Notes under the pieces: model-generated
The model's database searches: none
Told to the model about the DNA's origin: nothing
What the model saw: only the letters and a program-made list of their open reading frames with translations
Origin: Leifsonia poae
Lineage (GTDB): Bacteria; Actinomycetota; Actinomycetes; Actinomycetales; Microbacteriaceae
Assembly: GCF_020009625.1 (NCBI RefSeq)
Contig: NZ_JAIHLP010000001.1
Span: 33,923 to 97,922 of the forward strand
Direction: 5' to 3'
DNA length: 64,000 nt
Program-made: the position numbers and the translations under genes
In this document: positions 43,300 through 64,000 of the stretch, one piece after another
Layout: the number at the start of each line of letters is the position of its first letter
Numbering within the stretch: the first letter of the stretch is position 1

Positions 43300-43316
43300 C
43301 GGAAACGGGGGCGGTC

Positions 43317-45014: not shown

Positions 45015-45100
45015 GCCGGTCGCATCACCCACTCCCTTCGGTCTCTCCGGAGGGCTAACAGAAGACCCCGATTGCCGGGGAGAAGACAAGGAGAACAACT

Positions 45101-45613: not shown

Positions 45614-45697
45614 CTCAAACCCCTGGCGGGGTGTCTCACCGGTCGCCCCGCCAGGTTCTGCCCCTTGCCGGTGAAGTAACCGGTGAAAGGAAACCCC

Positions 45698-46273
45698 GTG
45701 CCCACAATCGATGAGATCCTCGCAGCCCGTGCAGCGTCGAAGCCGAAACCTGTTCAGGTGACGGTCCTGCTCGACGCCGACCAGTCGGAGAAGATCGAAG
45801 GACTCGAAGCGGAACTTCGTTCCCTCGCCGCATCCACCGACAAACGGCTGTCGAAAGCGGACGGTTCCGCCGAGCTCGAAGCACAGCTCGAAGAGATCAA
45901 ATCGGCACCAGCGGATGCGCTGGTCACGTTCGCGTTCGAGAAACTCCCCGGCGACATGTGGACCGACCTCACCTCACGGAACCCGGCCCGCCCTGACGCG
46001 CTGATCGACCTGAACTACGGGTACAACCTCGACGCGGTCGTGCAGGAAGCCGCGAAAGCCGCTCGTGGTGGGCACCACTTCGCCTGGCAGGTCGACGGCG
46101 ACACGAACATCGTCCTGACCGACGAGCAGTGGGATGCGATCTTCGAGTCACTCTACGGGCATGACATGTCGGCGGTCCGGGACGCCGTGTGGAACGTCAA
46201 CGAGTGGCAGCCGTCGCAGCGCCTCGCCGCCGCAAAAAAAGCACGGGCCGGGATCGACACCGGCTCGAACTAG
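45698..46273 (+). CDS. Tail assembly chaperone G
   Basis: This 191-aa protein starts at GTG 45698 behind AAAGGAAA. It has an N-terminal TIDEILAARAASKPKPVQVT and a helical region (LEAQLEEIKSAPADALVTFA). Near its end lies GCA AAA AAA GCA, an A-heptamer that fits a -1 slippery site. The frame-0 product ends at 46273. The fraction of ribosomes that slip would make a longer G-T fusion. This arrangement is nearly universal in long-tailed phages. Confidence 0.88.
   Translation: MPTIDEILAARAASKPKPVQVTVLLDADQSEKIEGLEAELRSLAASTDKRLSKADGSAELEAQLEEIKSAPADALVTFAFEKLPGDMWTDLTSRNPARPDALIDLNYGYNLDAVVQEAAKAARGGHHFAWQVDGDTNIVLTDEQWDAIFESLYGHDMSAVRDAVWNVNEWQPSQRLAAAKKARAGIDTGSN
46234..46240 (+). promoter_or_regulatory. 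Programmed -1 ribosomal frameshift site
   Basis: Seven A residues are read as A-AAA-AAA in frame (codons AAA at 46235-46237 and 46238-46240). Slipping back one base leads to codon AGC at 46240 and continues for about 135 codons to 46647. Position near the 3' end of the G gene, just before the tape measure, matches lambda-type G/GT. Confidence 0.85.
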
Positions 46274-46647
46274 CCCTCGCGTTCGGGATATCCCCACGCC
46301 GACTCACCGGGTGGGAACCCGCGGAGATCATCGACTACGAGTACGACGACGCCGGCCGGGTCTCACGGGCCATCGTCACCCGCGAGCCTGAGTTCACTGA
46401 CGACGATGTCACGGATCTCGTCGGGGCTCGGACGCTCGAGCGTGAGACCGGACGCTACGGCGAATCGCTCCCGGAGGCATTCTCAGATGAGGCGGCGCCC
46501 GAGTACTACGGACGCGGAGCGATTCGCTACCTGCCGAAGTACCGCGTCAACCAGGCGGAAGCCGCGGTCGAACGGCTCCGCAAAGAGCACAAAGACGACC
46601 TACCAGACGGTGCAAGCTTCTACATCGAGCGCGTCACGTACGACTGA
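46240..46647 (+). CDS. Tail assembly chaperone T, expressed as G-T fusion
   Basis: This is the -1 frame extension, about 135 aa after the slippery site, with LALAFGISPRRLTGWEPAEI and a C-terminal EAAVERLRKEHKDDL. It lacks a credible start of its own. The fusion would have about 316 aa. It binds the tape measure during tail assembly together with G. The open frame and position make this a standard T partner. Confidence 0.82.
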   Translation, partial: STGRDRHRLELALAFGISPRRLTGWEPAEIIDYEYDDAGRVSRAIVTREPEFTDDDVTDLVGARTLERETGRYGESLPEAFSDEAAPEYYGRGAIRYLPKYRVNQAEAAVERLRKEHKDDLPDGASFYIERVTYD

Positions 46648-46651
46648 GCGC

Positions 46652-46879
46652 TTAGCGGAATCGAACCCGTGTGAGCGCCAAGACGCCGCCGATGAGAGCA
46701 ACGACGACTGTGGCACCCAGGAGCGCCCAAGTCAGCGCACCCGCGCCTGCGGAAACGGCCGCAACGACGGTGGCGACAAGTAGCACCCCAGCGACGATGA
46801 GCGCATTTGCCCATGCGGGGCGCGTGGACCGAGCCGCCTTGTAGATCGAGGCATCGCGCGGTTCCGGCTCATCTGTCAT
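46652..46879 (-). CDS. Small minus-strand membrane protein (moron candidate)
   Basis: The protein is 75 aa. It has a polar N-terminal part (TDEPEPRDASIYKAARSTRP) and two helices (LIVAGVLLVATVVAAVSAGA and LLGATVVVALIGGVLALT). It lies in a 276-bp gap in the tail operon and is opposed to it. The chaperone-tape measure pair is usually contiguous, so an inserted membrane gene suggests a moron, perhaps for superinfection exclusion. The ribosome site is weak. Confidence 0.5.
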   Translation of the reverse strand: MTDEPEPRDASIYKAARSTRPAWANALIVAGVLLVATVVAAVSAGAGALTWALLGATVVVALIGGVLALTRVRFR

Positions 46880-46923
46880 GACTCGCACTCTACAACTCCA
46901 CACCGACTTGACGGGAGGTTCTC

Positions 46924-49740: not shown

Positions 49741-49743
49741 CTG

Positions 49744-50577
49744 ATGGCTTATGCGCCGACTCTGATTGTGTCGACGGATGCGGCGCCGTGTCCGCGCGCT
49801 GAGGTGTTGTTCACGTCGTTCGCGGCCGGTACCTCATCTGTGGATGTGTACCGTCTTGCTGCTGATCGTGAGTACCTTGTGCGTGGCGCGGTGAAGGCTG
49901 CTGTTGCCGGTGCGTTGTCGCGGATCGATTTCGAGATCCCGTTCGGTGTGCCGGTGCAGTACCGGGCGGAGATGTTCGACGCTGCGGGCCTGTCGCTCGG
50001 GTTCACGGACACTGCGACGGTCACGGTCGATGTGAGGGACACGTGGGTTCATAACCCGCTTGACCCGCAGGGGGCGACGACGGTTGCGTTCCGCGGCAAT
50101 GCGGCACGGTCGCTTGTTCGCCCGATTGAGGGTGACCGGGTGTGGCCGATTGGTCGAACTGTCGCGGTCATCGTGGCCGGGCAGCGGCGTGGAATCCAGG
50201 ATGCTGTTCTCGACGTGATCGTTGACAGTGTCAACCAGGCCGACCGGTTGCAGGCAATGTTCGGCAGTTACGGCACCCGCACCACACCGGTGCTCTGTTA
50301 CCGGATTGGTTCCACCGACCGGGTGCGTCTCCCTCGCCCGTTCTTTGCGGGCATTCTCAGCCTGGACGAGCAGGACCAGACGTACGTGTTGGGTGGGGAG
50401 AAGATCGCGTTCGGGATCACCGGTGACGAAGTGTCCCCGCCGACGCCGGCGCTGGTGGTGCCTCTGCTGACCCGTGCGGACCTGAATGCGGCGTTCCCGA
50501 CGAGGGCGGCGTTGAATGCGTTCTTCCTGACCCGTCTCGAGGCGAACCGGGCGTACCAGTTCGCGGGGACTTCCTGA
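49744..50577 (+). CDS. Distal tail / minor tail protein
   Basis: This 277-aa beta-rich protein has an N-terminal VDVYRLAADREYLVRGAVKA domain and a central RSLVRPIEGDRVWPIGRTVA, followed by RGIQDAVLDVIVDSVNQADR. This matches the first minor tail proteins after tape measure in actinophages (Dit-like). It abuts the next gene by one base. Confidence 0.72.
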   Translation: MAYAPTLIVSTDAAPCPRAEVLFTSFAAGTSSVDVYRLAADREYLVRGAVKAAVAGALSRIDFEIPFGVPVQYRAEMFDAAGLSLGFTDTATVTVDVRDTWVHNPLDPQGATTVAFRGNAARSLVRPIEGDRVWPIGRTVAVIVAGQRRGIQDAVLDVIVDSVNQADRLQAMFGSYGTRTTPVLCYRIGSTDRVRLPRPFFAGILSLDEQDQTYVLGGEKIAFGITGDEVSPPTPALVVPLLTRADLNAAFPTRAALNAFFLTRLEANRAYQFAGTS

Positions 50578-51689
50578 TGCGGGCACATACGACGGTTCTC
50601 GACAAGGTTCTGACGGGGTCGCACAACCGGCGGTTGATCGTTGATGTGTTTCACGGGTCCGACCGGGTGATGCGTGGGCTTGAGCTGACCGAGTGGGAGC
50701 TCGAAGGCGATCTGACTCGGGATGTGAAGTTCTCCGGGTCGGCGACGATCGCGTACCAGTCGGTGTCGGGTGAGTCGTTGGTGCCGGTGGAGACCGAAGG
50801 TGTGTTGTCGCCGTTCAAGGCGCGTCTGTTGTTGACGATGGAGATCACCGCTGGCAGTTTCACTGAGCTGATCACATTGGGGTGGGCGCGGGTCATCACC
50901 GTCCAGTCTGGTGTCGACTTTGTGGCCGATACCCGGTTCGGTCGGTTCGTTGTTGCGTCGGTGGTGCAGATCGTGTTCCTCGGTCTTGAGGAGAATGTGC
51001 GCCGGCGTGGGTTTCGTTCCCCGGAGCAGCCGCCGTCGCTGGTCTCCACGTATGCGGAGCTGCGGCGCATCACCGGGATGACGGTCGTCGCGACCGTTCC
51101 GGACAAGGCGATCCCGGCAGCGATCGTGTACGAGACGGCGCAGGGCGGCCGGCTGAACGGTGTGCAGGATCTGTGGGGGAACCTCGACTGCATCGGGGTG
51201 ATCAACCAGTTCGGTGCGTGGGTGGGTGTCCCGAAAAGCCCCGGGTCTTCGGTTGGTGCGTTGACGATCGGCGCGGAGGGGACCGTTGTCGATATCGGGT
51301 ATGAGGTCGACACGGACACTGTCTACAACTGCGTCGTCGGCACGTTCGAGGACGCCGACCGGAACCCGATCTATTCGGTTGCGGAGGAGACGGTCGGCCC
51401 GCTTGCAACGTCTGGGTATTACGAGGAGAACACCCGCTACTACTCGTCGCCGTTGGTGACGACGCAGGCCGGCGCGGACTCTGCGGTCAGGGCGATCCTC
51501 ACTCAGTCGATCGGCGGGCAAACGTACGAGGTCCCCATTTCGTGCATTGCGAACCCGGTGATCGAGTCCGGTGATGTGCTGCGTGTCCACGGGCACACGC
51601 GCCCGCTCAAGGGTCGGATGATCCGCTGGCGGATGACGCAGGCGGCGCTGATGGACGTGACCTTGGAAGTGCAGAGGAGCCTCACGTGA
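50577..51689 (+). CDS. Minor tail protein (DUF5047-type)
   Basis: This 370-aa protein begins HTTVLDKVLTGSHNRRLIVD and continues RGLELTEWELEGDLTRDVKF with FSGSATIAYQS. Later segments are a TEDL-like PVIESGDVLRVHGHTRPLKG and a terminal TLEVQRSL strand. This order fits the second baseplate-type protein. It overlaps the next gene by GTGA. Confidence 0.72.
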   Translation: MRAHTTVLDKVLTGSHNRRLIVDVFHGSDRVMRGLELTEWELEGDLTRDVKFSGSATIAYQSVSGESLVPVETEGVLSPFKARLLLTMEITAGSFTELITLGWARVITVQSGVDFVADTRFGRFVVASVVQIVFLGLEENVRRRGFRSPEQPPSLVSTYAELRRITGMTVVATVPDKAIPAAIVYETAQGGRLNGVQDLWGNLDCIGVINQFGAWVGVPKSPGSSVGALTIGAEGTVVDIGYEVDTDTVYNCVVGTFEDADRNPIYSVAEETVGPLATSGYYEENTRYYSSPLVTTQAGADSAVRAILTQSIGGQTYEVPISCIANPVIESGDVLRVHGHTRPLKGRMIRWRMTQAALMDVTLEVQRSLT

Positions 51690-52546
51690 GAACCGCGACC
51701 GACATCCTCGCCGACCGGGTCAAAGACCTCCCCGACGTGGACAGGCGCACCGCGATCTTCGCCCGCATGGACGGCAACCTCGCCGTCGTGAACACCGGCC
51801 CCACGACGATCAGCATCCCCTGTGTCGGGTTCTACCCGCCGATCCCTGGCATGGCCGTCCAGCTGGAACGCACCGCCGGACAATGGAAAGTGACCGGCCC
51901 TGCTGTGGCGCAACCAGCTATTGGGACGATCTCCGCCACCGGCACCCCGCAGGCGACTGTCACGATCGGCGGGAAGCAGTTCCAGCTGTACTACCGGTCC
52001 GGGTACACGCCCTCGATCGGTGACCAGGTCGAGGTGAACTGGGCAACCGGTGTCATCCAGGGTAAGATCACCGGGTCGAACACCGGCACCGACCCGGGCA
52101 CCAACCCCGGCGGCGGCGCAACCCCACTGCCCACGTCCCCGATCCTTGCCTCCGACTCCGGCCAGTTCCGGTCGAGGTGGCAGGGCAACGACCCGCGCGC
52201 CTCCGACAGTGTGTCAGGGGCGTGGGTCTACAACGGCCGCGTCGCCGCAGCACTCACCGGCGCCACGGTCACGAAGAGCGAAATTTACCTCCCGCTGCGC
52301 GCCCAACTCGGCGTGTGCAACATCGGCGTCCACACCTCCGCGACCCTCCCCAGCGGATGGGTCGGTATGAGTCTCTCCACCCCGCTCAACCCGCGCGGCG
52401 GGTGGGTGACCCTCCCGCTGTCGTTCGCCGCGACACTCGCTGCCGGCGGTGGGATCTCGGTTGCGTCCGGCAACGGCGACAACCAATGGGCGGGTACCCA
52501 GTCCGACCCTCTCTCTGGCGCGCTGCGCTTCCAAGGAACCCGATAG
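51686..52546 (+). CDS. Minor tail protein
   Basis: This 286-aa protein has an N-terminal OB-like segment (IFARMDGNLAVVNTGPTTIS, GMAVQLERTAGQWKVTGP), a flexible Gly/Pro/Thr linker (SNTGTDPGTNPGGGATPLP), and a C-terminal domain that resembles a carbohydrate-binding jelly roll. This suggests a receptor-binding part joined to a baseplate part, but I do not recognise a family. Confidence 0.65.
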   Translation: MRTATDILADRVKDLPDVDRRTAIFARMDGNLAVVNTGPTTISIPCVGFYPPIPGMAVQLERTAGQWKVTGPAVAQPAIGTISATGTPQATVTIGGKQFQLYYRSGYTPSIGDQVEVNWATGVIQGKITGSNTGTDPGTNPGGGATPLPTSPILASDSGQFRSRWQGNDPRASDSVSGAWVYNGRVAAALTGATVTKSEIYLPLRAQLGVCNIGVHTSATLPSGWVGMSLSTPLNPRGGWVTLPLSFAATLAAGGGISVASGNGDNQWAGTQSDPLSGALRFQGTR

Positions 52547-52554
52547 GAGCCCCG

Positions 52555-53133
52555 ATGTCCGCAGACAGATACGGCACGAAAGGTCAACCGCAGTTCGATG
52601 CCGTTGGTGCACCAGCGATCGACGTCGACCCCTCATCTGTCGCGGACTACGCGGCGACTGTCGGGAACCACATCGTCGGAACCACCGCGCAACGCAACGC
52701 GAACGTCGTGCCCGGCCCCTCCGGGAAAGCCGTGTGGGACGGCCTATATTGGTCCGACACCACAGACGGGTGCACGTACAAGAGGATCGCTGGTGCGTGG
52801 GTGCTCCAGCTGAAGGACACCGGGTGGTTGCCGTTGACCCTCGTCTCGTCGTGGGTCGATTACGGATCGTCCGCGTACGGGCCGCCCCGATACCGGGTTA
52901 TGAATGGTCAGACCCATGTGTCGATCATGATGAAGTCGGGAACGATCGCGTCGTCCACGCTCTTCACCACCCTGCCTGCCGGGCTACCGGGCACAACAGT
53001 CCTCAAGTGGGGTATTGGCTCCGGTGGTGTCCTCGTCGGCATCTCGGTCACACCTGACGGCAGGATGACCTTCGTCACCACTGCCAACGGAACGTACACA
53101 AACGTGTGCATCAGCTTCCCGGCTGATCAGTAG
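52555..53133 (+). CDS. Tail tip / receptor-binding-type protein
   Basis: The protein is 192 aa. The N-terminal part (DPSSVADYAATVGNHIVGTT and DGLYWSDTTDGCTYKRIA) is common in short tail fibre or tip proteins. The beta-rich C-terminal half has an alternating Thr/Val/Gly pattern. GGAG precedes ATG 52555. Function is inferred from position. Confidence 0.65.
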   Translation: MSADRYGTKGQPQFDAVGAPAIDVDPSSVADYAATVGNHIVGTTAQRNANVVPGPSGKAVWDGLYWSDTTDGCTYKRIAGAWVLQLKDTGWLPLTLVSSWVDYGSSAYGPPRYRVMNGQTHVSIMMKSGTIASSTLFTTLPAGLPGTTVLKWGIGSGGVLVGISVTPDGRMTFVTTANGTYTNVCISFPADQ

Positions 53134-53169
53134 GCAGACGCTTAGCCTCTGCCCGTTCGAACACTCTCC

Positions 53170-53192
53170 GGCCCTGCAAGTGCGGGGCCTTT
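53170..53192 (+). terminator. Terminator-like hairpin before the lysis gene
   Basis: GGCCCTGC pairs with GCGGGGCC (one G-U pair) around an AAGT loop and is followed by TTT. It lies in the 82-bp gap between the tail-tip gene and the lysin gene. Confidence 0.6.
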
Positions 53193-53215
53193 CGCATGTG
53201 AGGAAGCGCGAGCCG

Positions 53216-53980
53216 ATGCCCGAGTACATTTACCCCACCTACGCGCACACTGCGTCCGATCAGGACGGCACATGGCAGGGCCACAAGGACCGCACACCGC
53301 CGAGCGTGAATCCGGGCATGGACTACGCCTGCGCGTACGGGTCGGTTGTCGTCGCCGCGAAAGCTGGGGTGATCCGCGTCGCCGATTCGACGATGGGCGG
53401 CAGCGGCGGACGGCTGGTGTACATCACCCATCCCGATGGCGACGAAACCCAGTACCTGCACCTGTCCCGGATCGACGTGACCGCAGGCCAGACGGTGACC
53501 CAGGGGCAGCAGATTGCCCTGTCGGGTGCGTCCGGGTTCGGCTCAGACCGCTATTACGGCCCGCACTGCCACGTGTCCCTGTATCTGCACGGGGTGAACG
53601 TCGATTTTCAGAAGTACGTCAACATCACCGACTCTCACGGTGGGGGCGGATCGAACAAGGAGGACGAATTGTCTGCAGCAGAAGTGGCGGAGATCAAAGC
53701 GCACGTCACCGCCGAAACCAACCGGCTTGCCGAGTATGTGCGGCGGGAGTCCCGGATGCGCCTGTACAAGAACAGCGCCACCGGCCAGTTCATGGCTGCG
53801 TCGATCCTGTCGGGCCGGTACGAGATCCTTTCCGGTCAGTCGGAGGTCGACTCGCTCGTGAAGAACGGGTATCTGGAGATCGCGAACGGTGACGCCGCGA
53901 CCCCGCAGATCGTCGACGACCTGCGCTGGCGCAACATCATCGCCAAGTGCCCGGTGAACATCAAAGCCATCGCCGGCTGA
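53216..53980 (+). CDS. M23-like peptidase, candidate endolysin
   Basis: This 254-aa protein has the LytM/M23 beta fold: GMDYACAYGSVVVAAKAGVI (35-52), YLHLSRIDVTAGQTVTQGQQ, and YGPHCHVSLYL with His117 and His119. The usual first zinc ligand is histidine in HxxxD. Here the motif reads NPGMD, with Asn32 and Asp36. The C-terminal domain is helical then beta-rich and may bind the wall. DUF2746 and holin genes follow, so this is the natural lysis gene. Activity depends on whether Asn32 can bind zinc. Confidence 0.78.
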   Translation: MPEYIYPTYAHTASDQDGTWQGHKDRTPPSVNPGMDYACAYGSVVVAAKAGVIRVADSTMGGSGGRLVYITHPDGDETQYLHLSRIDVTAGQTVTQGQQIALSGASGFGSDRYYGPHCHVSLYLHGVNVDFQKYVNITDSHGGGGSNKEDELSAAEVAEIKAHVTAETNRLAEYVRRESRMRLYKNSATGQFMAASILSGRYEILSGQSEVDSLVKNGYLEIANGDAATPQIVDDLRWRNIIAKCPVNIKAIAG

Positions 53981-54011
53981 TCCCTCTCTCAACCCTGAGA
54001 GGGGGTCCTAG

Positions 54012-54476
54012 ATGAATCTGCCCGGATGGTTCATCGACTGGGCGGGGGATGTCACTCTCGCTCAGGTCGTGATCTGGATTGCGATCATCGTTTTCCTGAT
54101 CTGGATTCTGCGGAAGTCGTGGCCCGGTCTCCGAGCCGCGATCAAACTCACCGACATCTTGTCTGCGCTCCCGGCGTTCATGGAGCAGACGAAGAACACG
54201 CTCAGCGAGCAGGACCAGAAGATCGCCGAGATCCACCACGAGACCCACAACAACAACGGGTCGTCGATCAAGGACTCCACCGACCGTATCGAGCTCGGTG
54301 TGAGGGGACTGTTCGACCGGGTCGGGATTCTCGAGGAGACGACACGTTCCCTGATCACCAGCGACGCCGAACTGCGCAAAGACACTGCCAACCTTCGCCG
54401 TGAATTCGACGACACCCACCCGCGGTCTGCAATCGAGCACCTCCGTGACAACCCCACCCAGCAAGGAGAATCATGA
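54012..54476 (+). CDS. DUF2746-type membrane-anchored protein
   Basis: The protein is 154 aa. It has one N-terminal helix (LAQVVIWIAIIVFLIWILRK), followed by a coiled-coil-like region and a polar tail, the layout of DUF2746 proteins encoded in actinophage lysis cassettes. It overlaps the holin gene by ATGA. It may act as a second holin or spanin-like anchor. Confidence 0.75.
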   Translation: MNLPGWFIDWAGDVTLAQVVIWIAIIVFLIWILRKSWPGLRAAIKLTDILSALPAFMEQTKNTLSEQDQKIAEIHHETHNNNGSSIKDSTDRIELGVRGLFDRVGILEETTRSLITSDAELRKDTANLRREFDDTHPRSAIEHLRDNPTQQGES

Positions 54477-54886
54477 GTAAACACACCGCCGTCTCCGGCG
54501 CCATCTGGTTCCCGAACCAGCGCGTCATCCGCACCGTCCTGTCCGGCATCATCGCCGCGATCCCGACTCTCGTCGTCATTGCGGGTGTCCTCGCCGACCA
54601 GTGGCCGGTGCAGTGGCTCCTCGCCACCGTCGCCGCTCTCGTCGCGATCCAGGGTGTCCTCACCCGGGTCATGGCGATCCCGGGCGTGAACGCGTGGCTG
54701 ACTGGGCTCGGTGCCGGGTCCGCACCTCGCGAGGCGGCACTGAATGTTGACGGTTCGTACGTGGTCACCACTGTTCCCCAGTCGGTCACGGACGCGGTCC
54801 TCGCTGCGCATGCGGACAAGACGCCGGAGCAGAAGTCCGCGGACGAACAGTTCGCGGCTGGGCGGCTGGCTTCCGGTAACGCGTAA
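54473..54886 (+). CDS. Holin candidate
   Basis: The protein is 137 aa with two hydrophobic helices (IIAAIPTLVVIAGVLADQW and LLATVAALVAIQGVLTRV) and a long polar C-terminus. It lies between lysin/DUF2746 and tail-fibre genes. Two-helix holins of this length are frequent in actinophages. It would form the membrane hole that releases the lysin. Confidence 0.75.
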   Translation: MSKHTAVSGAIWFPNQRVIRTVLSGIIAAIPTLVVIAGVLADQWPVQWLLATVAALVAIQGVLTRVMAIPGVNAWLTGLGAGSAPREAALNVDGSYVVTTVPQSVTDAVLAAHADKTPEQKSADEQFAAGRLASGNA

Positions 54887-54916
54887 TCCACCCAGCGACT
54901 TGAACGAGGAGGACTC

Positions 54917-55801
54917 ATGCCCCAGGTGACCATCGGCGCCGACGATCTCGCCCAGGCCGGCCTCACCCCGGCCGAGGGTGATCGGTTCATGTTCCGGTTC
55001 GCGCAGGTCGCTGTCGGCGAGACGCGTGTGACCTCGACCGACACATGGACGGTCACCCTCGACGAGGCGGGTAACGCCAGCACGAGTGTTCCGCAGACGC
55101 CTCCCGGCAACGCGGTCGTGGTGTCGTCGTCTCTGCGCGGGTTCCGCACGACCTACGTGGCCGGGTACCCGAACACGGACACCACTCTCACCGAGCTCCT
55201 CACCGACTTCACCGTCAACCCGAGCACGCTCGCACCGACTCCGGCCACGGATGCGTGGTGGGTGGCTCTACGGACTCTGCAAGCGCAGGTCGACGCTATC
55301 GAGGGCGGCGGGCCGGGTGGGCCGGGCGATAAGGGTCCTACCGGTGACAAGGGCCCGGATGGGGACCGCGGCCCGCAAGGTTTCCCCGGGGACAAAGGTC
55401 CAGTCGGCGACCAGGGACCGATCGGAACGAAGGGTGCCACCGGCGATCTCGGTACCAAGGGTGCCACGGGCGATGCTGGCCCGGTCGGAGACAAAGGTCC
55501 GATCGGTGGTCGGGGCCCGGTTGGTGATGCCGGTACGAAGGGTGCAACGGGCGACAAGGGTCCGGCCGGGGACAAGGGGCCCACGGGTGATCAGGGGCCG
55601 ACTGGCGCGGCCGGCACCATCACCGCGGCGGCGATCACCGACTCCACCGTGATCGGGCGCACGCTCATCACGGCGTCGACCGCGGCGGCCGTGAAGGCGG
55701 CGGCCGGGCTGGGGAGCGTGACCAACATCGCTGTGACTCTTCTCGGCCCGTCTGATCCGGTGCCAGGTGGTACGCCTCCGGGCCTGATCGCGCGAGGGTA
55801 G
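54917..55801 (+). CDS. Collagen-like phage structural protein
   Basis: This 294-aa protein has a beta-type N-terminal head (residues 1-130, TIGADDLAQAGLTPAEGDRF) and then about 35 Gly-X-Y triplets (131-235), rich in GDK, GPT and GAT. A short C-terminal domain has STAAAVKAAAGLGSVTNIAV. Such proteins form triple-helical fibres. It is likely to be a tail or capsid fibre, although a fibre encoded after holin genes is unusual. The repeat-rich DNA could expand or shrink. Confidence 0.8.
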   Translation: MPQVTIGADDLAQAGLTPAEGDRFMFRFAQVAVGETRVTSTDTWTVTLDEAGNASTSVPQTPPGNAVVVSSSLRGFRTTYVAGYPNTDTTLTELLTDFTVNPSTLAPTPATDAWWVALRTLQAQVDAIEGGGPGGPGDKGPTGDKGPDGDRGPQGFPGDKGPVGDQGPIGTKGATGDLGTKGATGDAGPVGDKGPIGGRGPVGDAGTKGATGDKGPAGDKGPTGDQGPTGAAGTITAAAITDSTVIGRTLITASTAAAVKAAAGLGSVTNIAVTLLGPSDPVPGGTPPGLIARG

Positions 55802-55803
55802 AC

Positions 55804-57360
55804 ATGAGCATCCGTCCCGCAATCGTCACCATTGGTGCGACGGCGGCAGCGACCAGCGCGAACAACATCGTGCTGGCGCGGCCCTCCGGTATCCAGGTCG
55901 GCGATCTCCTCATGGTGGAGGCGTCGAACTCGAACCAGCCGCCGTCCGACTGGACCATCCCGTCCGGGTGGACACGCGAGGGCACCCCGTTCGTGGTCAA
56001 CGACGCCGACCAGCGCGGCACCGGCCTGTTCATCCTCAAGGTCGACACCGCCGGTGTGCTCGCCGCGCTGCCAGCGTCGTGGACGTTCACCTTCCCCGGA
56101 ACAGCTCGCATCCTCGGCGGCATCCAGGTCGTGCGGTACGTCGACCTTGCCGCGCCCATCGGCGGGTTCCCGGCGAAGTCCACCACCTCCGGCCTGGCCC
56201 GGGTCATGCCGTCGTTCACGGTCGCCCGCAACAACTCGTTGCTGGTGCTCGCGGCAACGAATCAGGTCACCTCCCCGAACCCGGCGACGGCGACCGTCAC
56301 CGACGGCACGGTCACGAGCGTTCTCGACCTTGCCACCCCGGGCGACACGACCGTTACCCGCACCGCGTTGAAGGTGTGGACGAAGCCCGTCGACGCCGGC
56401 GCATCCGGCAGCCAGACCGTCACCTGGACAGGTGCAGCCACCGGCGCCGCGGTCATGGGGTTCGCCCTCAACCCGCTGCCCGACCCCGGGTTCGCCTGGT
56501 CGATCTGGGACGGTACCACCGAACGCCCAGCGACCGTCACCATCTGGGACGGCGCGACCGAGAAGCCCGTCACCGGGGTCGGCTACGTTCCGAGAAACCA
56601 GACCGTCTCCCAAATGCTCGCAAGCTCCTCGTGGATCAGATGGGCGCACCGGTTCGGGTCCCGCAACTGGGTTGAGTTCTCCGCCCGCGCTGCCCGCGAG
56701 GCCGCCGTGTACTGGCAGGTCGACGCGCTCGAAGTGAGCGTCCACGTGTCCGCGTCACCCGACGGCGGCACCACGCCAGGCACGTTCTGGTGCTCCCACG
56801 ACGCCTACCTGGACCGCATGGTCCTCGGTGTCCCGGGCGGCACCACCCTCCCAATCGTGTCCCTCACCGACACGCAGATCCGTACCTACACGCAGACCGC
56901 CGCATTCACGGATGTGCCCGGCCAACCGTCGGAGCCGTTGCTCACCCTCGACGAGGTCGACGCCCTCTACCCGGGCGTCATCCTCGTGATCGAGGACAAA
57001 ACCTACGCGAATCAGGTGCGGTTGCGCGCATGGATCGACGCGCACGGTGGGGCTGCCCGCATCATCTGGAAACAGTCCGGGGCGGGCACACGCTCGCCCA
57101 GCTCAACCGGGCTCATCGCCTGGGGGTACTTCTTCGACACTGACATGGCGAGCTTCACGGCCAAGCAGGCGCAGTGGGACTACGTCGGCCTCGATTACCA
57201 GTCATCCGACGCGACAATCACGGCAGGCGTTACGGCCGCCGGCGCTTCGCGGTGCATCCACCACATCATCCCGAACACCGCCCAACGCGACAGGATGCTC
57301 GGCCTGGGCGCGCGCGGCCTCATGGTCGCGAACGTCCGGGACTGCGTCCCGCGCCCCTAG
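55804..57360 (+). CDS. Minor tail protein with glycerophosphodiester phosphodiesterase domain
   Basis: The protein is 518 aa. The N-terminal ~230 residues are beta-rich with two IWDG-x-T-E repeats (near 236-258), typical of fibre shafts. From about 278 a GDPD-type TIM barrel appears: WAHRFGSRNWVEFSARA, ALEVSVHVSASPDG, CSHDAYLDRM and VILVIEDKTY. GDPD domains in tail proteins can degrade teichoic-acid polymers on Gram-positive walls. The first HR-G-x pattern here is HRFGS; an acidic residue elsewhere should complete the site. Confidence 0.82.
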   Translation: MSIRPAIVTIGATAAATSANNIVLARPSGIQVGDLLMVEASNSNQPPSDWTIPSGWTREGTPFVVNDADQRGTGLFILKVDTAGVLAALPASWTFTFPGTARILGGIQVVRYVDLAAPIGGFPAKSTTSGLARVMPSFTVARNNSLLVLAATNQVTSPNPATATVTDGTVTSVLDLATPGDTTVTRTALKVWTKPVDAGASGSQTVTWTGAATGAAVMGFALNPLPDPGFAWSIWDGTTERPATVTIWDGATEKPVTGVGYVPRNQTVSQMLASSSWIRWAHRFGSRNWVEFSARAAREAAVYWQVDALEVSVHVSASPDGGTTPGTFWCSHDAYLDRMVLGVPGGTTLPIVSLTDTQIRTYTQTAAFTDVPGQPSEPLLTLDEVDALYPGVILVIEDKTYANQVRLRAWIDAHGGAARIIWKQSGAGTRSPSSTGLIAWGYFFDTDMASFTAKQAQWDYVGLDYQSSDATITAGVTAAGASRCIHHIIPNTAQRDRMLGLGARGLMVANVRDCVPRP

Positions 57361-57542
57361 TCGACGAGGATCGCGTTGATGATGAACCCGGCAGGGATTC
57401 GTCGTCTCGCTTCGGCGATGCCCGCGACGTAGTCAGCACATTCGACCACGATCTCGTCACCGAGCTCGACCGGGTCTGAACCCTGTCTCTGCACCCGCAA
57501 CCTGACCTTCACACCGCCAACGATACGGTGAGCTACCGTCAT
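57357..57542 (-). CDS. Small phage protein at right end
   Basis: The protein is 61 aa with HRIVGGVKVRLRVQRQGSDP and CADYVAGIAEARRRIPAG. It converges with the fibre gene by a 4-bp overlap. It reads leftward, as do all genes to its right in the phage. Function is unknown. Confidence 0.6.
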   Translation of the reverse strand: MTVAHRIVGGVKVRLRVQRQGSDPVELGDEIVVECADYVAGIAEARRRIPAGFIINAILVD

Positions 57543-57624
57543 TGCCTGCCAAAGAGAAACCCCCAGGGTGGGTAAGTCCCCGGGGGTCAGTTCTCATTGC
57601 GGATGAGGTTGGGATGTTCGGTTC

Positions 57625-58122
57625 TTAGACGGCTGCCTTTCTCGGGCGTCCACCACTGGTGTTGCGGGTTTCAAGCCAACGCTCCACAGCATGCCGTCCC
57701 ATCAACGGGCCCTGAGCGGTCTCAATGACCGGACTCGGGAATCCGTTGATGGAAGCGAACTGCCGTGCACGCTGACGAGAGACACCAGCCATATCTGCAA
57801 TCTCCGCATAGCCGACAACCTCCGGAAACAGAGGCCGTTCGAGTTCTGCGTCGACTGCTGCTTCGGAAAGTACTTCCAGCCTGGTCACGTTGATCGAACC
57901 GAGTGTCGATTCGGCCGTGGTCGTGACGAGACGGGATGCTTCCGTGGCTGCGTCGAGAGGCGTCGCGGCCTCTACCGAGAGGACGACAGTTCCTCCGGTG
58001 AGGTCGTGCTCAACACTCATCGCCGCCCCGTGGTTGGTCAGCGCGTCAATGGTGTCGAAGGCCGCATCTTCCGTGAACGTAGTTGCGCTCACGAACGACA
58101 CACTGGCCTGCCAACTAGTCAT
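57625..58122 (-). CDS. HTH protein, possible HicB-type antitoxin
   Basis: The protein is 165 aa from ATG 58122 behind AGAGGA. The N-terminal ~90 residues are alpha/beta (WQASVSFVSATTFTEDAAFD, LTGGTVVLSVEAATPLDAAT). The C-terminal part is a helix-turn-helix (YAEIADMAGVSRQRARQFAS, then MGRHAVERWLETRN). It follows a HicA-like frame on the same strand. Antitoxins with a degenerate N-terminal domain and DNA-binding C-terminal domain fit this pattern, but the N-domain does not clearly match HicB. An independent DNA-binding role is possible. Confidence 0.6.
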   Translation of the reverse strand: MTSWQASVSFVSATTFTEDAAFDTIDALTNHGAAMSVEHDLTGGTVVLSVEAATPLDAATEASRLVTTTAESTLGSINVTRLEVLSEAAVDAELERPLFPEVVGYAEIADMAGVSRQRARQFASINGFPSPVIETAQGPLMGRHAVERWLETRNTSGGRPRKAAV

Positions 58123-58180
58123 TGCTTTGTCCTCTCTGATGGGTGAAGTTGAGGGGTACTCCCAAAGGGATGTTGTGTTA

Positions 58181-58224
58181 GGTTGAGGGGAAAGCCGCCC
58201 TGTCAAGTGACTTTCCCCCCAACC
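58181..58224 (-). other. 14-bp hairpin between HicA-like frame and HTH gene
   Basis: GGTTGAGGGGAAAG pairs with CTTTCCCCCCAACC, one mismatch, loop of 16. It overlaps the right inverted repeat. GTTGAGGGG recurs at 58148-58156. The loop contains TTGACA on the minus strand, so the region may be a promoter with operator or an attenuator for the HTH gene. Confidence 0.45.
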
Positions 58225-58232
58225 TCATCCGC

Positions 58233-58427
58233 TTACTGGTTGTATCCGCGCTGTCTCAGCAGCGAGAGGGTATTTGCATACCATCTGTGGTCGGACGGTG
58301 TTCCATGAATCAGAACGGCCGTCAGGGTTTTGTTCGGTGGATAACACATCCATCCCTTTTTGGTGGGGACGATCCGCCAACCCTGTTCTTCCAGCGATTC
58401 GATAAGCGGTTTGATTCGCTTGTCGAT
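58233..58427 (-). CDS. HicA-like mRNA interferase-type ORF without canonical start
   Basis: The open frame (about 64 aa) reads IDKRIKPLIESLEEQGWRIV, then KKGWMCYPPNK and IHGTPSDHRWYANTLSLLRQ. This is the family pattern of HicA-like toxins with a dsRBD-like fold and a conserved His in HGTPSDH. AGGAGG lies on the minus strand upstream, but no ATG, GTG or TTG follows in frame. ATC at 58427 is the only codon at a suitable distance. Either a rare start, a start lost to mutation or a sequence error is possible. Confidence 0.55.
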   Translation of the reverse strand: MDKRIKPLIESLEEQGWRIVPTKKGWMCYPPNKTLTAVLIHGTPSDHRWYANTLSLLRQRGYNQ

Positions 58428-58451
58428 CGGGGGTACCTCCTCTCTATTTAG

Positions 58452-58491
58452 TTGTCGATGACAATACTATCATAAAACTTGTCAATGACAA
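58452..58491. promoter_or_regulatory. Two TTGTC-N3-GACAA palindromes
   Basis: TTGTCGATGACAA (58452-58464) and TTGTCAATGACAA (58479-58491) are near-identical palindromes with centres 27 bp apart. They sit directly upstream of the minus-strand HicA-like/HTH genes in an AT-rich patch. They look like a double operator, perhaps for autoregulation of that module. The binding protein is unknown. Confidence 0.55.
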
Positions 58492-58492
58492 G

Positions 58493-58538
58493 AGCCCTGG
58501 CCTTGCCGCTCTTCGGAGTAGCAGGGCCGGGGCTTTTT
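58493..58538. terminator. Bidirectional terminator-like hairpin
   Basis: AGCCCTGGCC pairs with GGCCGGGGCT (one G-U pair) and is followed on the plus strand by TTTTT. On the minus strand it lies 8 bp after the stop of the gene at 58546, so it probably ends that gene's message. Confidence 0.65.
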
Positions 58539-58545
58539 CGTGGTT

Positions 58546-58890
58546 CTACGCCCTCTTCTGGGCCCGGTAGAAGCGCAGCAGCTCGGCTGGCGCAGGTTCC
58601 GGTGTCGTGTCCTGTCGGCCCGTGCCAGCGATATGCCGCTGCCAATCCGCGAGGGCGATACTGAAGTCACGCGCAGCGGACGCAGCATCATCGAGGGTGC
58701 GCCAATACCCGATGAGTACCCGGTCCTCGGATCGCGGCGCGGCGGTCACGACTCGGAACCATTCCTCGCGGGTCTTCCCGTCACCGACGACGAGACGGCG
58801 GATGATCGCATACGGTTGCAGACCACCGACCGCTGTCATCGCCCACTCAACCGGGGTGGCTTCGCTGGACGGTCTCCACTCTGCGGGCAC
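58546..58890 (-). CDS. Right-end phage hypothetical protein
   Basis: The protein is 114 aa from GTG 58890, chosen because AGAGGA precedes it; an in-frame GTG at 58926 lacks this. It has PAEWRPSSEATPVEWAMTAV, then YAIIRRLVVGDGKTREEWFR and a helical C-terminus (FSIALADWQRHIAG). The pattern is familiar from integrated actinophages, but I cannot name a function. Confidence 0.65.
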   Translation of the reverse strand: MPAEWRPSSEATPVEWAMTAVGGLQPYAIIRRLVVGDGKTREEWFRVVTAAPRSEDRVLIGYWRTLDDAASAARDFSIALADWQRHIAGTGRQDTTPEPAPAELLRFYRAQKRA

Positions 58891-59139
58891 GACGGATACT
58901 CCTCTCCAAGGGGTGGGGAGCAGCACCGGCCCGCTGCGGGGACGAGTCTACGACGGGACGCCGACAGCGACATGCCTGTCACCAAGCGTGGATTCATCAC
59001 GATCCAGTATTTACTCGGTACTTTGGGTCACAAATCCTCACCAGTAGTCACCAATTGGGAGAGTGGTGGGGGAGTTCATCCCCGGTAATTCACTACTAGA
59101 CATGAATCGATGCCACTCCGCGTTAGCGCGGCTCTGGAA
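58891..59139. other. Phage right-end intergenic region (P arm of attP)
   Basis: With the core, terminator and integrase 3' flank this makes a non-coding stretch to 59251. No gene is seen. It holds the arm-type repeat at 59002-59025, a related CCAGTAGTCAC at 59041-59051, and a small perfect hairpin CCGCG-TTAG-CGCGG (59118-59131) directly before the core. Confidence 0.6.
59002..59025. repeat. Probable integrase arm-type site, right arm
   Basis: ATCCAGTATTTAC-(4 nt)-TACTTTG is in the same orientation and spacing as at 19108-19131. It lies 115 bp before the core, whereas the other copy lies about 70 bp past it. A weaker match (CCAGTAGTCAC) is 35 bp further on. Confidence 0.6.
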
Positions 59140-59173
59140 CAGTGGGTTCCGGGTTCAAGTCCCGGGGGGTGCA
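59140..59173 (+). other. Attachment core in attP configuration
   Basis: The 34-base core (3' part of tRNA-Lys) is preceded by the phage right end and followed by the phage left end, terminator and integrase. A chromosomal attR would be followed by host DNA. Therefore this is an attP junction, as found in circular phage DNA or between tandem prophages. Confidence 0.9.
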
Positions 59174-59180
59174 CAATCAA

Positions 59181-59212
59181 GGCCCGGAATCTAGCGGATT
59201 CCGGGCCTTTTT
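59181..59212 (+). terminator. Second copy of the tRNA-side terminator
   Basis: Identical to 19046-19077: a near-perfect 11-bp stem with TTTTT after it. Here it follows the attP core and not a complete tRNA gene. It would end any rightward transcript crossing the junction. Confidence 0.8.
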
Positions 59213-59242
59213 CGTTGGCTACCGAGTCGAGGCGAATCGCGA

Positions 59243-59266
59243 ATCCAGTATTTACCCATTACTTTG
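59243..59266. repeat. Second copy of the left-arm integrase site
   Basis: Identical to the site at 19108-19131, overlapping the stop codon of the second integrase gene. Together with 59002-59025 and the core it gives a complete attP with matching sites on both arms. Confidence 0.6.
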
Positions 59267-60388
59267 AAACATCGTCTCAATGACTTCTGCGAAGTCTGAG
59301 ACCTGTTCAGCCCGCTCCAAGTAGTACGTCGTCGTGATCTCTTCGGACTCGTGCCCCAGCTGCGATTGAGCCGCCTTAATGCCCAGGGTCTGGTCCAGAT
59401 GGGTGGCAATTGCCTTGCGGAAATCCCGGGGAGTCTTGCCGACGTACGGGGACCCTTTCAGAGCCTCGCGCCAATGCCGACGTGTATTCGCCGGCCATCG
59501 GTACGTCCCAGTGCTTGACGGGAAGACCATCTCAAAGTGAGCGTTGATACGACGCTCGGTGAGCATCTGAACTGCTGTTGCCGGGAGCATCAGTCCGCGC
59601 TGTCCAGCCTCCGATTTGGGGTGATCTTGGCGGAAGAGCTTGCCGGTATCCGGGTCGGTGGAGAGCGTGCCGCAGATTCGCAACAGCCCTCGATCCAGGG
59701 CAACATCTTGCTCCCATCGTGGCGCCAAGCCTTCGCCGGTCCTCGCTCCGGTGGACATGATGAGCATCGATATCTCAGACAGTTCCGATGTGTGGGTTTC
59801 GTCGTACGCCGCGAAAAGCTCTCGCATCCGGTGGATGTGATTGATGGCGATGACCTTGACAACATTCTTGACCGCCGGCACGGGCATCGTCTCTGTCACG
59901 GGGTTCTTGCCGATCGCTCCTTGCCTCACGGCCAGGGCAAACATCTGAAGCATGACCGTCCGCGCGGTCCGGGCGATTGCCGGCGTAGCGAGCATGGACT
60001 TGATGAATCGATCAACCCGAGGCACTGATGCCTCGTTCAGCCGCAAGCTTCCGATTCCCGGCTTGATTCTCGACTGAATCGAGTTCCTGTACGTGTTGAA
60101 TGTCCCTGCGACGGTCTTCTTGAGTCGCAGTTCTTCAAGCCACTTATCAGCGAGCTCGCTAACCGACGAAGTGGGGGAGAGGAGGTCAGCGTCGGTCCCC
60201 TCCGCGAGCTTAGATTTGAGCGCCTTGATGAGGTTCTGCTCCGCATTCGCTTCGGTTCTTCCGTTGCGCTGCATCTGTCGACGCCTCCCGCTTGCGTCGC
60301 GGAAATACGCGTATGCGATCGGTTGGCCGTCGATCGTGGTTCGCCGAATCGATCCCCACGTCTCGAGTACCAGTGGTGGTCTAGCCAT
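59252..60388 (-). CDS. int: Tyrosine-family phage integrase, second copy
   Basis: It is identical in translation to the integrase at 19117-20253, with the same 378-aa frame, start and catalytic residues, including the box II Arg in place of His. If the tandem arrangement is real, the cell has two integrase genes. If it is an assembly overlap, this is the same gene. Confidence 0.93.
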   Translation of the reverse strand: MARPPLVLETWGSIRRTTIDGQPIAYAYFRDASGRRRQMQRNGRTEANAEQNLIKALKSKLAEGTDADLLSPTSSVSELADKWLEELRLKKTVAGTFNTYRNSIQSRIKPGIGSLRLNEASVPRVDRFIKSMLATPAIARTARTVMLQMFALAVRQGAIGKNPVTETMPVPAVKNVVKVIAINHIHRMRELFAAYDETHTSELSEISMLIMSTGARTGEGLAPRWEQDVALDRGLLRICGTLSTDPDTGKLFRQDHPKSEAGQRGLMLPATAVQMLTERRINAHFEMVFPSSTGTYRWPANTRRHWREALKGSPYVGKTPRDFRKAIATHLDQTLGIKAAQSQLGHESEEITTTYYLERAEQVSDFAEVIETMFQSNG

Positions 60389-60399
60389 ACCGAATCCTC

Positions 60400-60841
60400 T
60401 CAGGAGAGCGCTCGCGCGAGCGTGTTCGTAAATCGTCCAAGTGGGCGCGTGCTGTACGTGCGGGCGCCGAGCCGTTGCAGGCAATGCGTCCGGTAGTGGT
60501 CGAGCAAGTCGATGGTGATGCCGAGCTCGTCGGCGATGTAGAACCGGTCAGTGCTGACCTGTTCGAGGGCGGCGTACTCGGCCGGGTCGATCAAGAGCTC
60601 CGCAGCGAACGTATCGGCCTGGCGTTCGGCGGTGAGCGAGTCGCAGGTGTGGCCGTGGTGGGCGTGCCGAGTTCGTGGGCGATCGTGCAGCGGCGCTCGT
60701 CGGGGGTGAGCGACAGGTCGAAGTAGATGCGCCCCTCGCTGGGGAGTAGTACCCCAGGCCGCCATCGTCGAGATGGACTCCGTGCACCCTGACCCCCATC
60801 TCCGCCGCCCTCCGGAGCAAAACCTTCACCGCATCCTCCAT
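60400..60841 (-). pseudogene. ImmA/IrrE-like metallopeptidase, second copy with two frameshifts
   Basis: It corresponds to 20265-20708. A missing base in the C run at 60667-60668 and another in the G run at 60741-60744 break the frame upstream of and within the HELGH region. The N-terminal part (VHGVHLDDGGLGYY) and the C-terminal part (TAERQADTFAAELL) are otherwise intact in separate frames. The first copy is undamaged, so sequence error is the likelier reason. Confidence 0.88.
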
Positions 60842-61345
60842 CTACTCCGCGTGAGGCTGGTCGGCCTTCTTTCGCCCTTTCTTCGCCACCAGGTCGACGT
60901 CCTTTTTGGTCACGTCCTCGTGTGTCACATCCCAATCCTCACCGATGAGATCGTCATCCGTGAGAGAACTCTCAGTATCGGGGGAGGGTGCGACATCCAG
61001 GATCGGCGTGAGCTTTGGAACCGCCCTTCCAGAGGCGGGTGGAATCATGGGAAGGCGGTCATCTTCGGGGTAGGTTGACCCGTCGCGTTCGCCTAGTTCG
61101 ACAGCGAGGCGGCTATATGCGGTTTCGACTATCACCTGCGGATCAATGTCGATTACTTCGCACGCCTCACAGACGACGGAAAGCGGAATCTCGGTCTTCC
61201 CGTTGAGCCACCGGTTGAAAGCGGCGGGAGAGCGATTGATCGCTTCGGCTACGGCCGAGGCTGTAAAGCCCATGGCTGTGATCTTCCCCTTCAACTCGAG
61301 CCCCACAAATCGCGTGAAAATCTCGGCCCTCTGTCGGATGTTCAT
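60842..61345 (-). CDS. HTH-domain phage repressor, second copy
   Basis: Same 167-aa sequence as at 20709-21212, with the HTH in residues ~18-70. The divergent operator region and Cro-like gene also repeat next to it. Confidence 0.82.
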   Translation of the reverse strand: MNIRQRAEIFTRFVGLELKGKITAMGFTASAVAEAINRSPAAFNRWLNGKTEIPLSVVCEACEVIDIDPQVIVETAYSRLAVELGERDGSTYPEDDRLPMIPPASGRAVPKLTPILDVAPSPDTESSLTDDDLIGEDWDVTHEDVTKKDVDLVAKKGRKKADQPHAE

Positions 61346-61441
61346 ATCGACACACTATCACTCATTTTGGACAATTCAAGTGTTCAAAGCGATAAACGAT
61401 TGAACTTGACACTTGCCGCGATGAGTAATTAGATTGCTCAT
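61346..61441. promoter_or_regulatory. Immunity switch region, second copy
   Basis: Same 96-bp spacer as 21213-21308: TTGACA with a 17-bp spacer and TTAGAT ahead of the Cro-like gene, plus the nested inverted repeats CAAGTGT/ACACTTG and GTTCAA/TTGAAC. Confidence 0.62.
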
Positions 61442-61663
61442 ATGAACAATCCGGTCATCGAGTGGAGCGCCAGGGCAGTGCGAGACGCAATTGCCGATGC
61501 GGGGCGTTCCAAGCGTTCCGTCTCTGATGAGACGGGCATTCCATATCCGACCCTCAACCGCAAATTGGCTGCGAAGTCCGAGTTCAGCTTCACGGAACTA
61601 CTGATGCTCGCCGATGCGCTCGGCGTGGCCCCAAAACAGTTCACGCCACCCGTATTCGCCTAG
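61442..61663 (+). CDS. Cro-like small HTH protein, second copy
   Basis: Identical to the 73-aa protein at 21309-21530, with the same recognition helix and the same upstream promoter. Confidence 0.8.
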   Translation: MNNPVIEWSARAVRDAIADAGRSKRSVSDETGIPYPTLNRKLAAKSEFSFTELLMLADALGVAPKQFTPPVFA

Positions 61664-61728
61664 CCGCTGAGCGCGCGGACGCCCATCAGGGGCGCTATTT
61701 GTCGCGCCTAGAAAAGAGAGGAACAGCA

Positions 61729-62469
61729 ATGACAGCCGGCACCAGTCTCGTCGCCATGAACGACGGTGAGCTAACCACCACCTCGCAGATCATCGCGGAC
61801 GGGACGGGCATAGAGCACGCCTCCGTGCTCCGCACGATCGACGGCAACCGAGCCGATTTCGAGGATTTCGGCCCACTCCGATTTGAAATCCGAGAGGGTG
61901 CGCGTCTTCCACAAGGCGGTTTCGCGAAGGGGACGCGGATAGCGCTACTATCCGAGTCCCAGGCGACGCTTCTTATGACGTTCATGCGGAACATTGGCCC
62001 CGTAAAGGCCTTCAAGAAGGCGCTGGTGAAGGCATTCTATGAGCTCGCACGCCACGGGATGGCGCTTCCGCAGACGCGGGCCGAAGCACTCCGCGAACTG
62101 GCTTCCCAGATCGAAGCCAACGAGGCCCTCGAAGCCAAGGCAGCGCTTGACGCACCGAAGGTGCTATTCGCAGATGCGGTCGCAACGTCCAAGACCACAG
62201 TCCTTGTCGGCGAGTTGGCGAAAGTGCTTCGCGGCAACGGCATCGAACTCGGTCAGAACCGACTGTTCGAACGGCTCCGCGAGGACGGATACCTGATCCG
62301 TCGAGCAGGCTCCGACTGGAACATGCCGACGCAGCGTGCGATGGAACTCGGCCTGTTCGAGATCAAGGAGACCGCTGTAACCCACTCCGATGGTCACGTG
62401 ACCGTGAACAAGACCCCGAAGGTCACGGGCAAGGGGCAGGCGTACTTCGTGAACAGGTACTCCGCATGA
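61729..62469 (+). CDS. Rha/KilAC regulator, second copy
   Basis: Identical to the 246-aa protein at 21596-22336: Rha domain followed by KilAC. ATG 61729 has the same AGAGAGGAA ribosome site and the gene ends in the same ATGA overlap. Confidence 0.87.
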   Translation: MTAGTSLVAMNDGELTTTSQIIADGTGIEHASVLRTIDGNRADFEDFGPLRFEIREGARLPQGGFAKGTRIALLSESQATLLMTFMRNIGPVKAFKKALVKAFYELARHGMALPQTRAEALRELASQIEANEALEAKAALDAPKVLFADAVATSKTTVLVGELAKVLRGNGIELGQNRLFERLREDGYLIRRAGSDWNMPTQRAMELGLFEIKETAVTHSDGHVTVNKTPKVTGKGQAYFVNRYSA

Positions 62470-62669
62470 GCGGGGGAGTGGTTTGGATGACCGAGTTTGA
62501 GGCATCCGAGCACTGCAATATCCCCGTCAACACCTTGCGTGCGTGGCGGCAAAAGGAAGCCAAGGAGGCGGGATCGAGCCCGCTGCGCTTCCACCGAATT
62601 GGCCGGCTCGTCCGGTACGTCCAGTCCGAGCTGGACCACGACATGGCGCACGGACGTCGTGCGGCTTAG
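62466..62669 (+). CDS. Excisionase-like protein, second copy
   Basis: Identical to the 67-aa winged-helix protein at 22333-22536. The short hairpin that follows the first copy also recurs here, at 62685-62706. Confidence 0.72.
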   Translation: MSGGVVWMTEFEASEHCNIPVNTLRAWRQKEAKEAGSSPLRFHRIGRLVRYVQSELDHDMAHGRRAA

Positions 62670-62728
62670 GCGAACAAAAGGAAACGCCTCGGGGGCAACC
62701 GAGGCGAATCAAGAGAAAGGCACCAGTA

Positions 62729-63151
62729 ATGCCCGAAGCAATTGTACCCAAGACGTCGGGAGGTCGGCCGAGCACCTTCGCCGACCTCGACGACTACACC
62801 GTTGCGCCGCACGAATTCATCAAGGCTGACTCGCAGTTCCTCATGCGTGACATCGCGGTGGGCCACGCATTCCTCGCGCTTCTCGAAGCACTTCGCGCGT
62901 CGGCGGAGTTCGACCTCACCGAGGACGGCGAAATCAAAGCGACCGTCGCGCTCGCGGAGGAAGAGAAGACGGCCAGGCTCCGTTCGGCCCAGTCTTCGTG
63001 GGATGTGTCCAAAGCCTGGTATGAGGAGGCGGAGGAGAAAGTCATCGAATCGTGGAAGCGCTATTCGGTCAACGCGTGGGCTAGGCGCGAGGGTCGCGAG
63101 CCCATCGATTGGGAACAGCACGACGCGCAGCACGAGCGGGTGTCCGCATGA
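62729..63151 (+). CDS. Phage hypothetical protein, second copy
   Basis: Identical to the 140-aa helical protein at 22596-23018, including the ATGA overlap with the BRO gene. Confidence 0.7.
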   Translation: MPEAIVPKTSGGRPSTFADLDDYTVAPHEFIKADSQFLMRDIAVGHAFLALLEALRASAEFDLTEDGEIKATVALAEEEKTARLRSAQSSWDVSKAWYEEAEEKVIESWKRYSVNAWARREGREPIDWEQHDAQHERVSA

Positions 63152-63932
63152 GCGCCGACATTGTCCCGTTCGCGTTCGAGGGGGTGGAAGTACGCACCCT
63201 CACCATCAACGGTGAGACATGGTTCGTACTTGCTGACCTGTGCAACTACCTCGGGATCTCGAATCCGTCCAACGTCGCGGCGAGGCTCGACCCGACCACA
63301 ACGGATACCCTCCGCCTGACAGAGGGTAATCGCGGCAACCCGAACGTGACCATCGTCAACGAGTCGGGCATGTACGAAGCGGTCATCAGATCGGACAAGC
63401 CGGAAGCGGTCAGATTCCGCCATTGGCTCACAGGCACGGTTCTTCCCGAGATCAGGAGAACTGGATCGTACGGTCACCCGGCCGACGATCTCGCGCTCCC
63501 CACCGACTACCTGTCCGCGCTGAAAGCGTTGGTGCAGCGTGAAGAGCAGAACGTCGAACTCGCGCAGCAGAACGCCGAGCTCACGCCGCGTGCGATCGCG
63601 TGGGATGCGATCGCTTCGGCTGAGGGTGACTACTCGGTCGGTGAGGCGGCGAAGATGCTCGCCCACGCAGGCATCTCGAACATGGGTCCGCAGCGGTTGT
63701 TTTCCCGGCTGGCGGACATTGGTTGGACTTTCCGTGCTGGCGCGGCATGGCAGGCGAAAGCAGACCGGGTGGAGAAGGGGTTCCTCTCGATCAAGCCGCA
63801 GTTCCACTACCACCGGGCACCGGAGCGCGCGTAGTTGACCCGCCTCAGGTGCGGGTGACGCTCAAGGGTGTCGAGCAACTGCGGCGGCGGCTCGGTGGCG
63901 GCAACGGCGCCATTCAGGTGGTGCCGTCGTGA
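63148..63932 (+). pseudogene. BRO-N/KilAC antirepressor, second copy with late frameshift
   Basis: It matches 23015-23800 until a CCC run is shortened to CC at 63813-63814. After that the frame ends early at 63834 (with HYHRAPERA), while the original C-terminal frame remains open from there to 63932. Bro-N and almost all of KilAC are unaffected. The loss is of the same type as the other copy differences. Confidence 0.88.
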
Positions 63933-64000
63933 GCCGTCATGCCGCGGTGGTGCTGCCCCTCAACCACCGGAAGTCGTTCATCATCCCGATCCCGCCGCCG
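63929..64000 (+). CDS. Small phage ORF, second copy, cut by window end
   Basis: GTG 63929 begins the same small product as at 23797 (SRHAAVVLPLNHRKSFIIPI). The last few bases differ from the first copy, then the window stops. Partial. Confidence 0.45.
   Translation, partial: MSRHAAVVLPLNHRKSFIIPIPPP

Follow-up and report, generated by a model that had tools for sequence, protein, structure and literature searches.

The window, by which we mean the whole stretch of 64,000 nucleotides analysed here, comprises bases 33,923-97,922 of contig C1, itself 97,922 bp long. Within it, a comparison of the window against itself reveals direct repeats 40,135 bp apart (19005 matching 59140) that bound a phage unit. 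The left-hand repeat is a 35-bp attL core at 19005-19039, which ARAGORN and the self-match together identify as the 3' end of a tRNA-Lys gene. A 23-base piece of this core, allowing up to two mismatches, occurs twice in the window, compared with a mean of 0.00 in 100 shuffles. The principal features of the site and of the phage are as follows.

18966..19039, forward strand: tRNA-Lys (CTT), called by ARAGORN
19005..59139, forward strand: single full prophage unit of 40,135 bp, delimited by the repeat spacing, the att cores and the phage genes
19117..20349, reverse strand: tyrosine integrase of 410 aa (PHROG 1, E 9.1e-42; PF00589, PF22022 and PF14659 above cut-off)
20265..20708, reverse strand: ImmA-like metalloprotease (Peptidase_M78), intact in copy 1 (PHROG/Pfam profiles and frame comparison)
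20709..21212, reverse strand: HTH repressor-like protein (weak matches to PHROG repressor families; HTH_31 just under the Pfam cut-off)
22333..22536, forward strand: possible excisionase, HTH_17-like, 67 aa (tentative, below the Pfam cut-off)
22976..23800, forward strand: antirepressor (Bro-N + ANT), intact in copy 1 (PHROG/Pfam profiles and frame comparison)
37972..39477, forward strand: terminase large subunit (PHROG 9, E 2.5e-45; no Pfam hit at 0.001)
39228..40871, forward strand: portal protein (PHROG 104, E 2e-100)

The integrase is intact across its 410 aa, with all three Pfam integrase domains above cut-off, and the single unit also encodes a Cro-like protein, two ANT-domain antirepressors, an exonuclease, a helicase, a head protease, a major head protein, a tape measure and tail genes. 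The prophage appears to be a temperate tailed phage that was probably active in the sequenced culture. A 27-nt tandem repeat occupies 24472-25193, where a 236-nt reference matches 19 times in shifted registers spaced 27 nt apart. It gives the DUF7666 phage protein encoded at 24186-25247 a repeat of nine residues within its C-terminal part.

At the right-hand end of the unit, the phage is followed by itself. A first-pass annotation had reported that the phage left end is read again after the attachment core at a distance of 40,135 bp, and the repeat comparison reproduces this exactly, as well as its statement that the integrase and repressor genes recur after the core. These repeated features, together with the phage stretch that is repeated elsewhere in the assembly, are listed here.

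46939..59174, forward strand: phage stretch repeated by C2:1-12236, on the attR side (99.78% over 12,248 columns)
59140..59174, forward strand: attP-type core of 35 bp, flanked by the right arm of the phage on the left and by its left arm on the right
59140..63997, forward strand: partial second copy of the phage left end (99.918%), running to the contig end
59252..60484, reverse strand: integrase, second copy, letter-identical
60842..61345, reverse strand: repressor-like gene, second copy, letter-identical

An attP junction with both phage arms is therefore present at 59140-59174, its core being the same as that at attL. The alignment of 59140-63997 with 19005-23866 spans 4,862 columns without a substitution and contains four single-base deletions in the second copy, because of which the spacing between the copies drifts from 40,135 to 40,131; all four of these indels lie beside an identical base. 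The integrase and repressor-like genes agree letter for letter between the copies. The frames of the ImmA-like protein and the antirepressor are uninterrupted in copy 1 but disrupted in the C1 tail. Only 4.86 kb of a second unit falls within the window, because the window end (64000) is also the end of C1.

The other side of the prophage is found at the start of contig C2 (3,979,341 bases), which begins within the phage and continues past the att core into DNA other than the phage left end, giving attR at C2:12203-12236. The attL junction in C1 and the attR junction in C2 are thus both joined to non-phage DNA, and all three junctions (attL, attP-type and attR) occur in the assembly, and the two contigs share the right end of the phage over 12.2 kb. 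The earlier claim that no host DNA follows the core consequently holds within C1 but fails for the assembly, in which attR leads out of the phage. C1 and C2 jointly account for one 40,135-bp prophage. A CCA following the discriminator base of tRNA-Lys is encoded behind the attR core (C2:12203-12245), as it is in three of five relatives, and at attL (window 18966-19068) other phage bases stand in its place, so that the attL tRNA-Lys would depend on CCA addition.

We searched the whole phage against the complete assembly in four pieces to see what else of it was present. The second hits were the phage left 4.8 kb in the C1 tail and the right 12.2 kb in the C2 head; beyond these there were matches of 327 bp at 79%, 57 bp at 95%, 41 bp at 86% and one of 26 bp. 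The 57-bp match (C2:1096564-1096620, against the phage near window 58500) may be a terminator common to both places or a relic of a phage. In this piecewise search of the whole assembly, no second long copy of the phage between 23866 and 46939 (about 23 kb) was found. The assembly therefore holds one complete phage unit only, and a second could lay claim to the 4.86 kb in C1 and the 12.2 kb in C2.

The differences between the repeated stretches are of a distinctive kind. Compared with C1, the C2 head has 24 indel columns and three substitutions; 26 of these 27 differences lie in its first 4.3 kb, the remaining one lies in the att core, and 19 of the 24 indels sit beside an identical base. Indels outnumber substitutions by eight to one or more in every comparison made (C1 tail, C2 head, C4 and C5). 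Contig ends rich in indels are the usual look of lightly covered ends in long-read assemblies, and the differences between the copies look like raw-read errors; we infer that a long-read technology lies behind the assembly. The end of C1 is thus a repeat of sequence read earlier, errors of a sequencing type cluster near contig ends, and a pattern of the same kind is seen in C4 and C5. Contig C4 (39,825 bp; 1-39825) ends with a second reading of its initial 10.5 kb, which differs by 18 indel columns and two substitutions, and is a circle of about 29.3 kb that was walked past its closing point and left untrimmed. The first 20 kb of C4 matched three plasmid records, over 1-3%. Contig C5 (12,787 bp; 1-12787) is a poor duplicate of part of C4, its longest match having 176 indel columns and 18 substitutions, and the end repeat of C4 and the redundant C5 inflate the genome size. 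The one difference in the attR core, which otherwise equals that of attL and attP, is a G run one base shorter (C2:12231 against window 59169), coming after 7.9 kb without a difference. It may reflect a consensus error, drift of an unused piece of tRNA or a difference between host and phage, and it does not separate a circle from a tandem.

In a culture of a lysogen, excision between attL and attR gives attP circles and attB chromosomes, or phage DNA replicates after induction. We consider it likely that the locus represents one prophage in tRNA-Lys, accompanied by phage DNA with an attP junction (an excised circle or replicating phage) into which a long-read assembler walked. In such a case, a single 40,135-bp prophage would be resident in the tRNA-Lys gene of the actinobacterium, and part of the phage DNA in the culture would have carried the attP junction, whether as excised circle or as replicating phage. 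The assembler would then have met a fork at the phage right end, with attR leading to the host and attP leading back into the phage. C1 would have started in host DNA, crossed attL and the prophage and, by its choice of reads, passed onto the attP branch and the phage left end, stopping about 4.9 kb past attP at the point where the next reads had presumably already been used, while the reads of the attR branch would have become the start of C2. C1 does end 4.86 kb past attP and C2 does start 12.2 kb before attR, and both ends could plausibly be covered by a long read. Against a circle stands the observation that the circle of about 29 kb has its own contig and the phage circle has none: there is no separate circular phage contig, C3-C5 being without a phage match. 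The earlier argument that a single integrated prophage cannot give this arrangement is sound for one DNA molecule, but not where prophage excision also takes place in the culture. Two of the three causes then proposed, the excised circle and the assembler's walk, together fit everything seen, and the third, tandem integration, is not required.

That third cause would place two 40-kb units, identical to each other, at the tRNA-Lys site, with an attP-like internal junction and two immunity regions, collapsed by the assembler so that C1 and C2 were both left ending inside the collapsed pair. We regard this as unlikely, yet as a reading to be kept in view, since a tandem pair gives the same fork and the assembly alone cannot separate the two. 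The attP-type junction, found here alongside attL and attR, could equally derive from a tandem dimer, and a dimer sequenced with reads shorter than 40 kb would be expected to leave the same pattern of contigs. Prophages in tandem are also known, for example in Mycobacterium abscessus T36, although the study describing them calls the state unusual (PMC9934374). What speaks against a tandem here is that some 23 kb of the proposed second unit has no second copy anywhere in the assembly, and that it would be odd for an active copy to have its ImmA-like and antirepressor frames broken, as they are in the tail. Because the differences are nearly all indels near contig ends, they likewise give no indication that a second copy was inherited independently. 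The first-pass annotation had itself named, as marks against tandem integration, a contig that simply ends and reads joining attR to the host at equal depth; as far as the assembly shows, C1 ends at window position 64000 and an attR-host junction is present in C2. A recent identical duplicate that the assembler collapsed would escape all of these points, but nothing in the data requires a tandem prophage.

That the assembler simply misjoined sequences at the 35-bp core, and that the sample contained no attP molecule, is very improbable: the core does occur at attL, attP and, bar one base, attR, and the junction lies near a contig end, but joins in long-read assemblies rest on kilobases of overlap and not on 35 bp, the junction is exactly the product of excision by an integrase, and the tail retains 4.86 kb of matching phage DNA. 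Least credible is a tandem lysogen whose second copy truly carries damaged ImmA-like and antirepressor genes, leaving the cell with two repressor genes and one working induction switch.

Another way to view the site is through the host DNA on either side of it. The attR-side flank in C2 was matched over more than 1 kb in 11 of 39 other genomes. In five of these (G002, G007, G015, G021 and G023), a tRNA-Lys lies 1.3-7.7 kb from the flank on the same strand; a sixth, G014, has a 27-bp piece of the core 7.7 kb upstream of the C2-type flank; and for the remaining five the tRNA match falls on a different contig or far off, with the best eight candidates per genome scored. Of the five relatives with a neighbouring tRNA-Lys, two have the window's left flank in collinear order and three have it inverted. 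A strict empty site, with the tRNA joined directly to the C2 flank, was found in none of these five, 1.3-7.7 kb intervening in each case. Because six of the 11 relatives have the flank without a matched full tRNA-Lys nearby and none of the five has a strict empty site, the comparison gives partial support to the proposal that both flanks belong to one integration site. The DNA between the tRNA-Lys and the conserved flank differs among the five relatives, and the stretch behind the tRNA-Lys is probably an insertion hot spot. The 35-bp core is a common tRNA-Lys sequence, found in 91 stretches of named genomes (80 of them given as loci). When such loci were compared with the two flanks, the best 40 rows all involved the left flank and none the right; the left flank resembles Microbacteriaceae loci, which suggests no more than that family for the host, and the comparison is neutral on a tandem.

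The preferred reading, one prophage together with attP-junction phage DNA, has close precedents. Phages of Propionibacterium freudenreichii JS7, JS22 and JS23, sequenced by PacBio, are described as both integrated and circular (PMC5644110). Like the present case, these are actinobacterial temperate phages, of 38-43 kb, seen as integrated form and circle in the long reads of one culture, and in JS7 and JS22 the phage adjoins a tRNA gene; unlike the present case, in which the circle would be fused to the end of a lysogen contig, the circle there is a sequence of its own (PMC5644110). The program Prophage Tracer takes signals of excision from attP and attB split reads, and so shares the principle that an attP junction marks an active, excising prophage, although here the junction lies in a contig and not in reads and gives no rate (PMC8682789). 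The tandem prophages prophiT36-2a and prophiT36-2b of M. abscessus T36 are similar in that an att core links phage units at a single site, but according to their description they are two different phages at attB-2 (PMC9934374), whereas here there is one phage, and a second unit is represented by no more than 4.86 kb where the contig ends. The C1 tail looks ordinary and adds nothing beyond the cited precedents. The probable activity of the prophage in the sequenced culture is a modestly useful finding, and the case carries a warning to check an assembly for attR before a partial prophage repeat at a contig end is called tandem lysogeny. Were the tandem real, one more case would be added to a state that is known but uncommon.

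Relatives of the phage itself are distant. The integrase had no relatives in collections of viral contigs and genome contigs, and was matched in 26 of 40 relatives' genomes, its own included; as the other matches reached at most 46% identity, no close relative phage was found. The portal protein was matched in three of 28 genomes of the genus, its own included, and since the other two are only distant (24-26% identity), no sister prophage is available for comparing integration states; none of the 27 other genomes of the genus matched a 240-bp piece of the right arm. Against 50,697 phage records, blastn with 58000-64000 matched 255, with no match covering more than 80% of the query, and the 20 listed were short antirepressor matches or without annotation. 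Using megablast, one of two phage parts matched 74 records, the 20 listed sharing a methylase stretch of about 3% of the query, and the other matched 32 Brevibacterium records, the 20 listed matching the 35-bp core only. In Brevibacterium phage AGM1 (NC_054989), the same 35-bp tRNA-Lys core lies inside gp33, annotated as a repressor (retrieved stretch 2001-2035). No ssrA-like tail was obvious by eye in gp33, which adjoins a 65-aa gene annotated as an integrase, most of which is apparently gone. This placing of the core within the repressor gene resembles the integration-dependent immunity described for mycobacteriophage BPs (PMC4557955).
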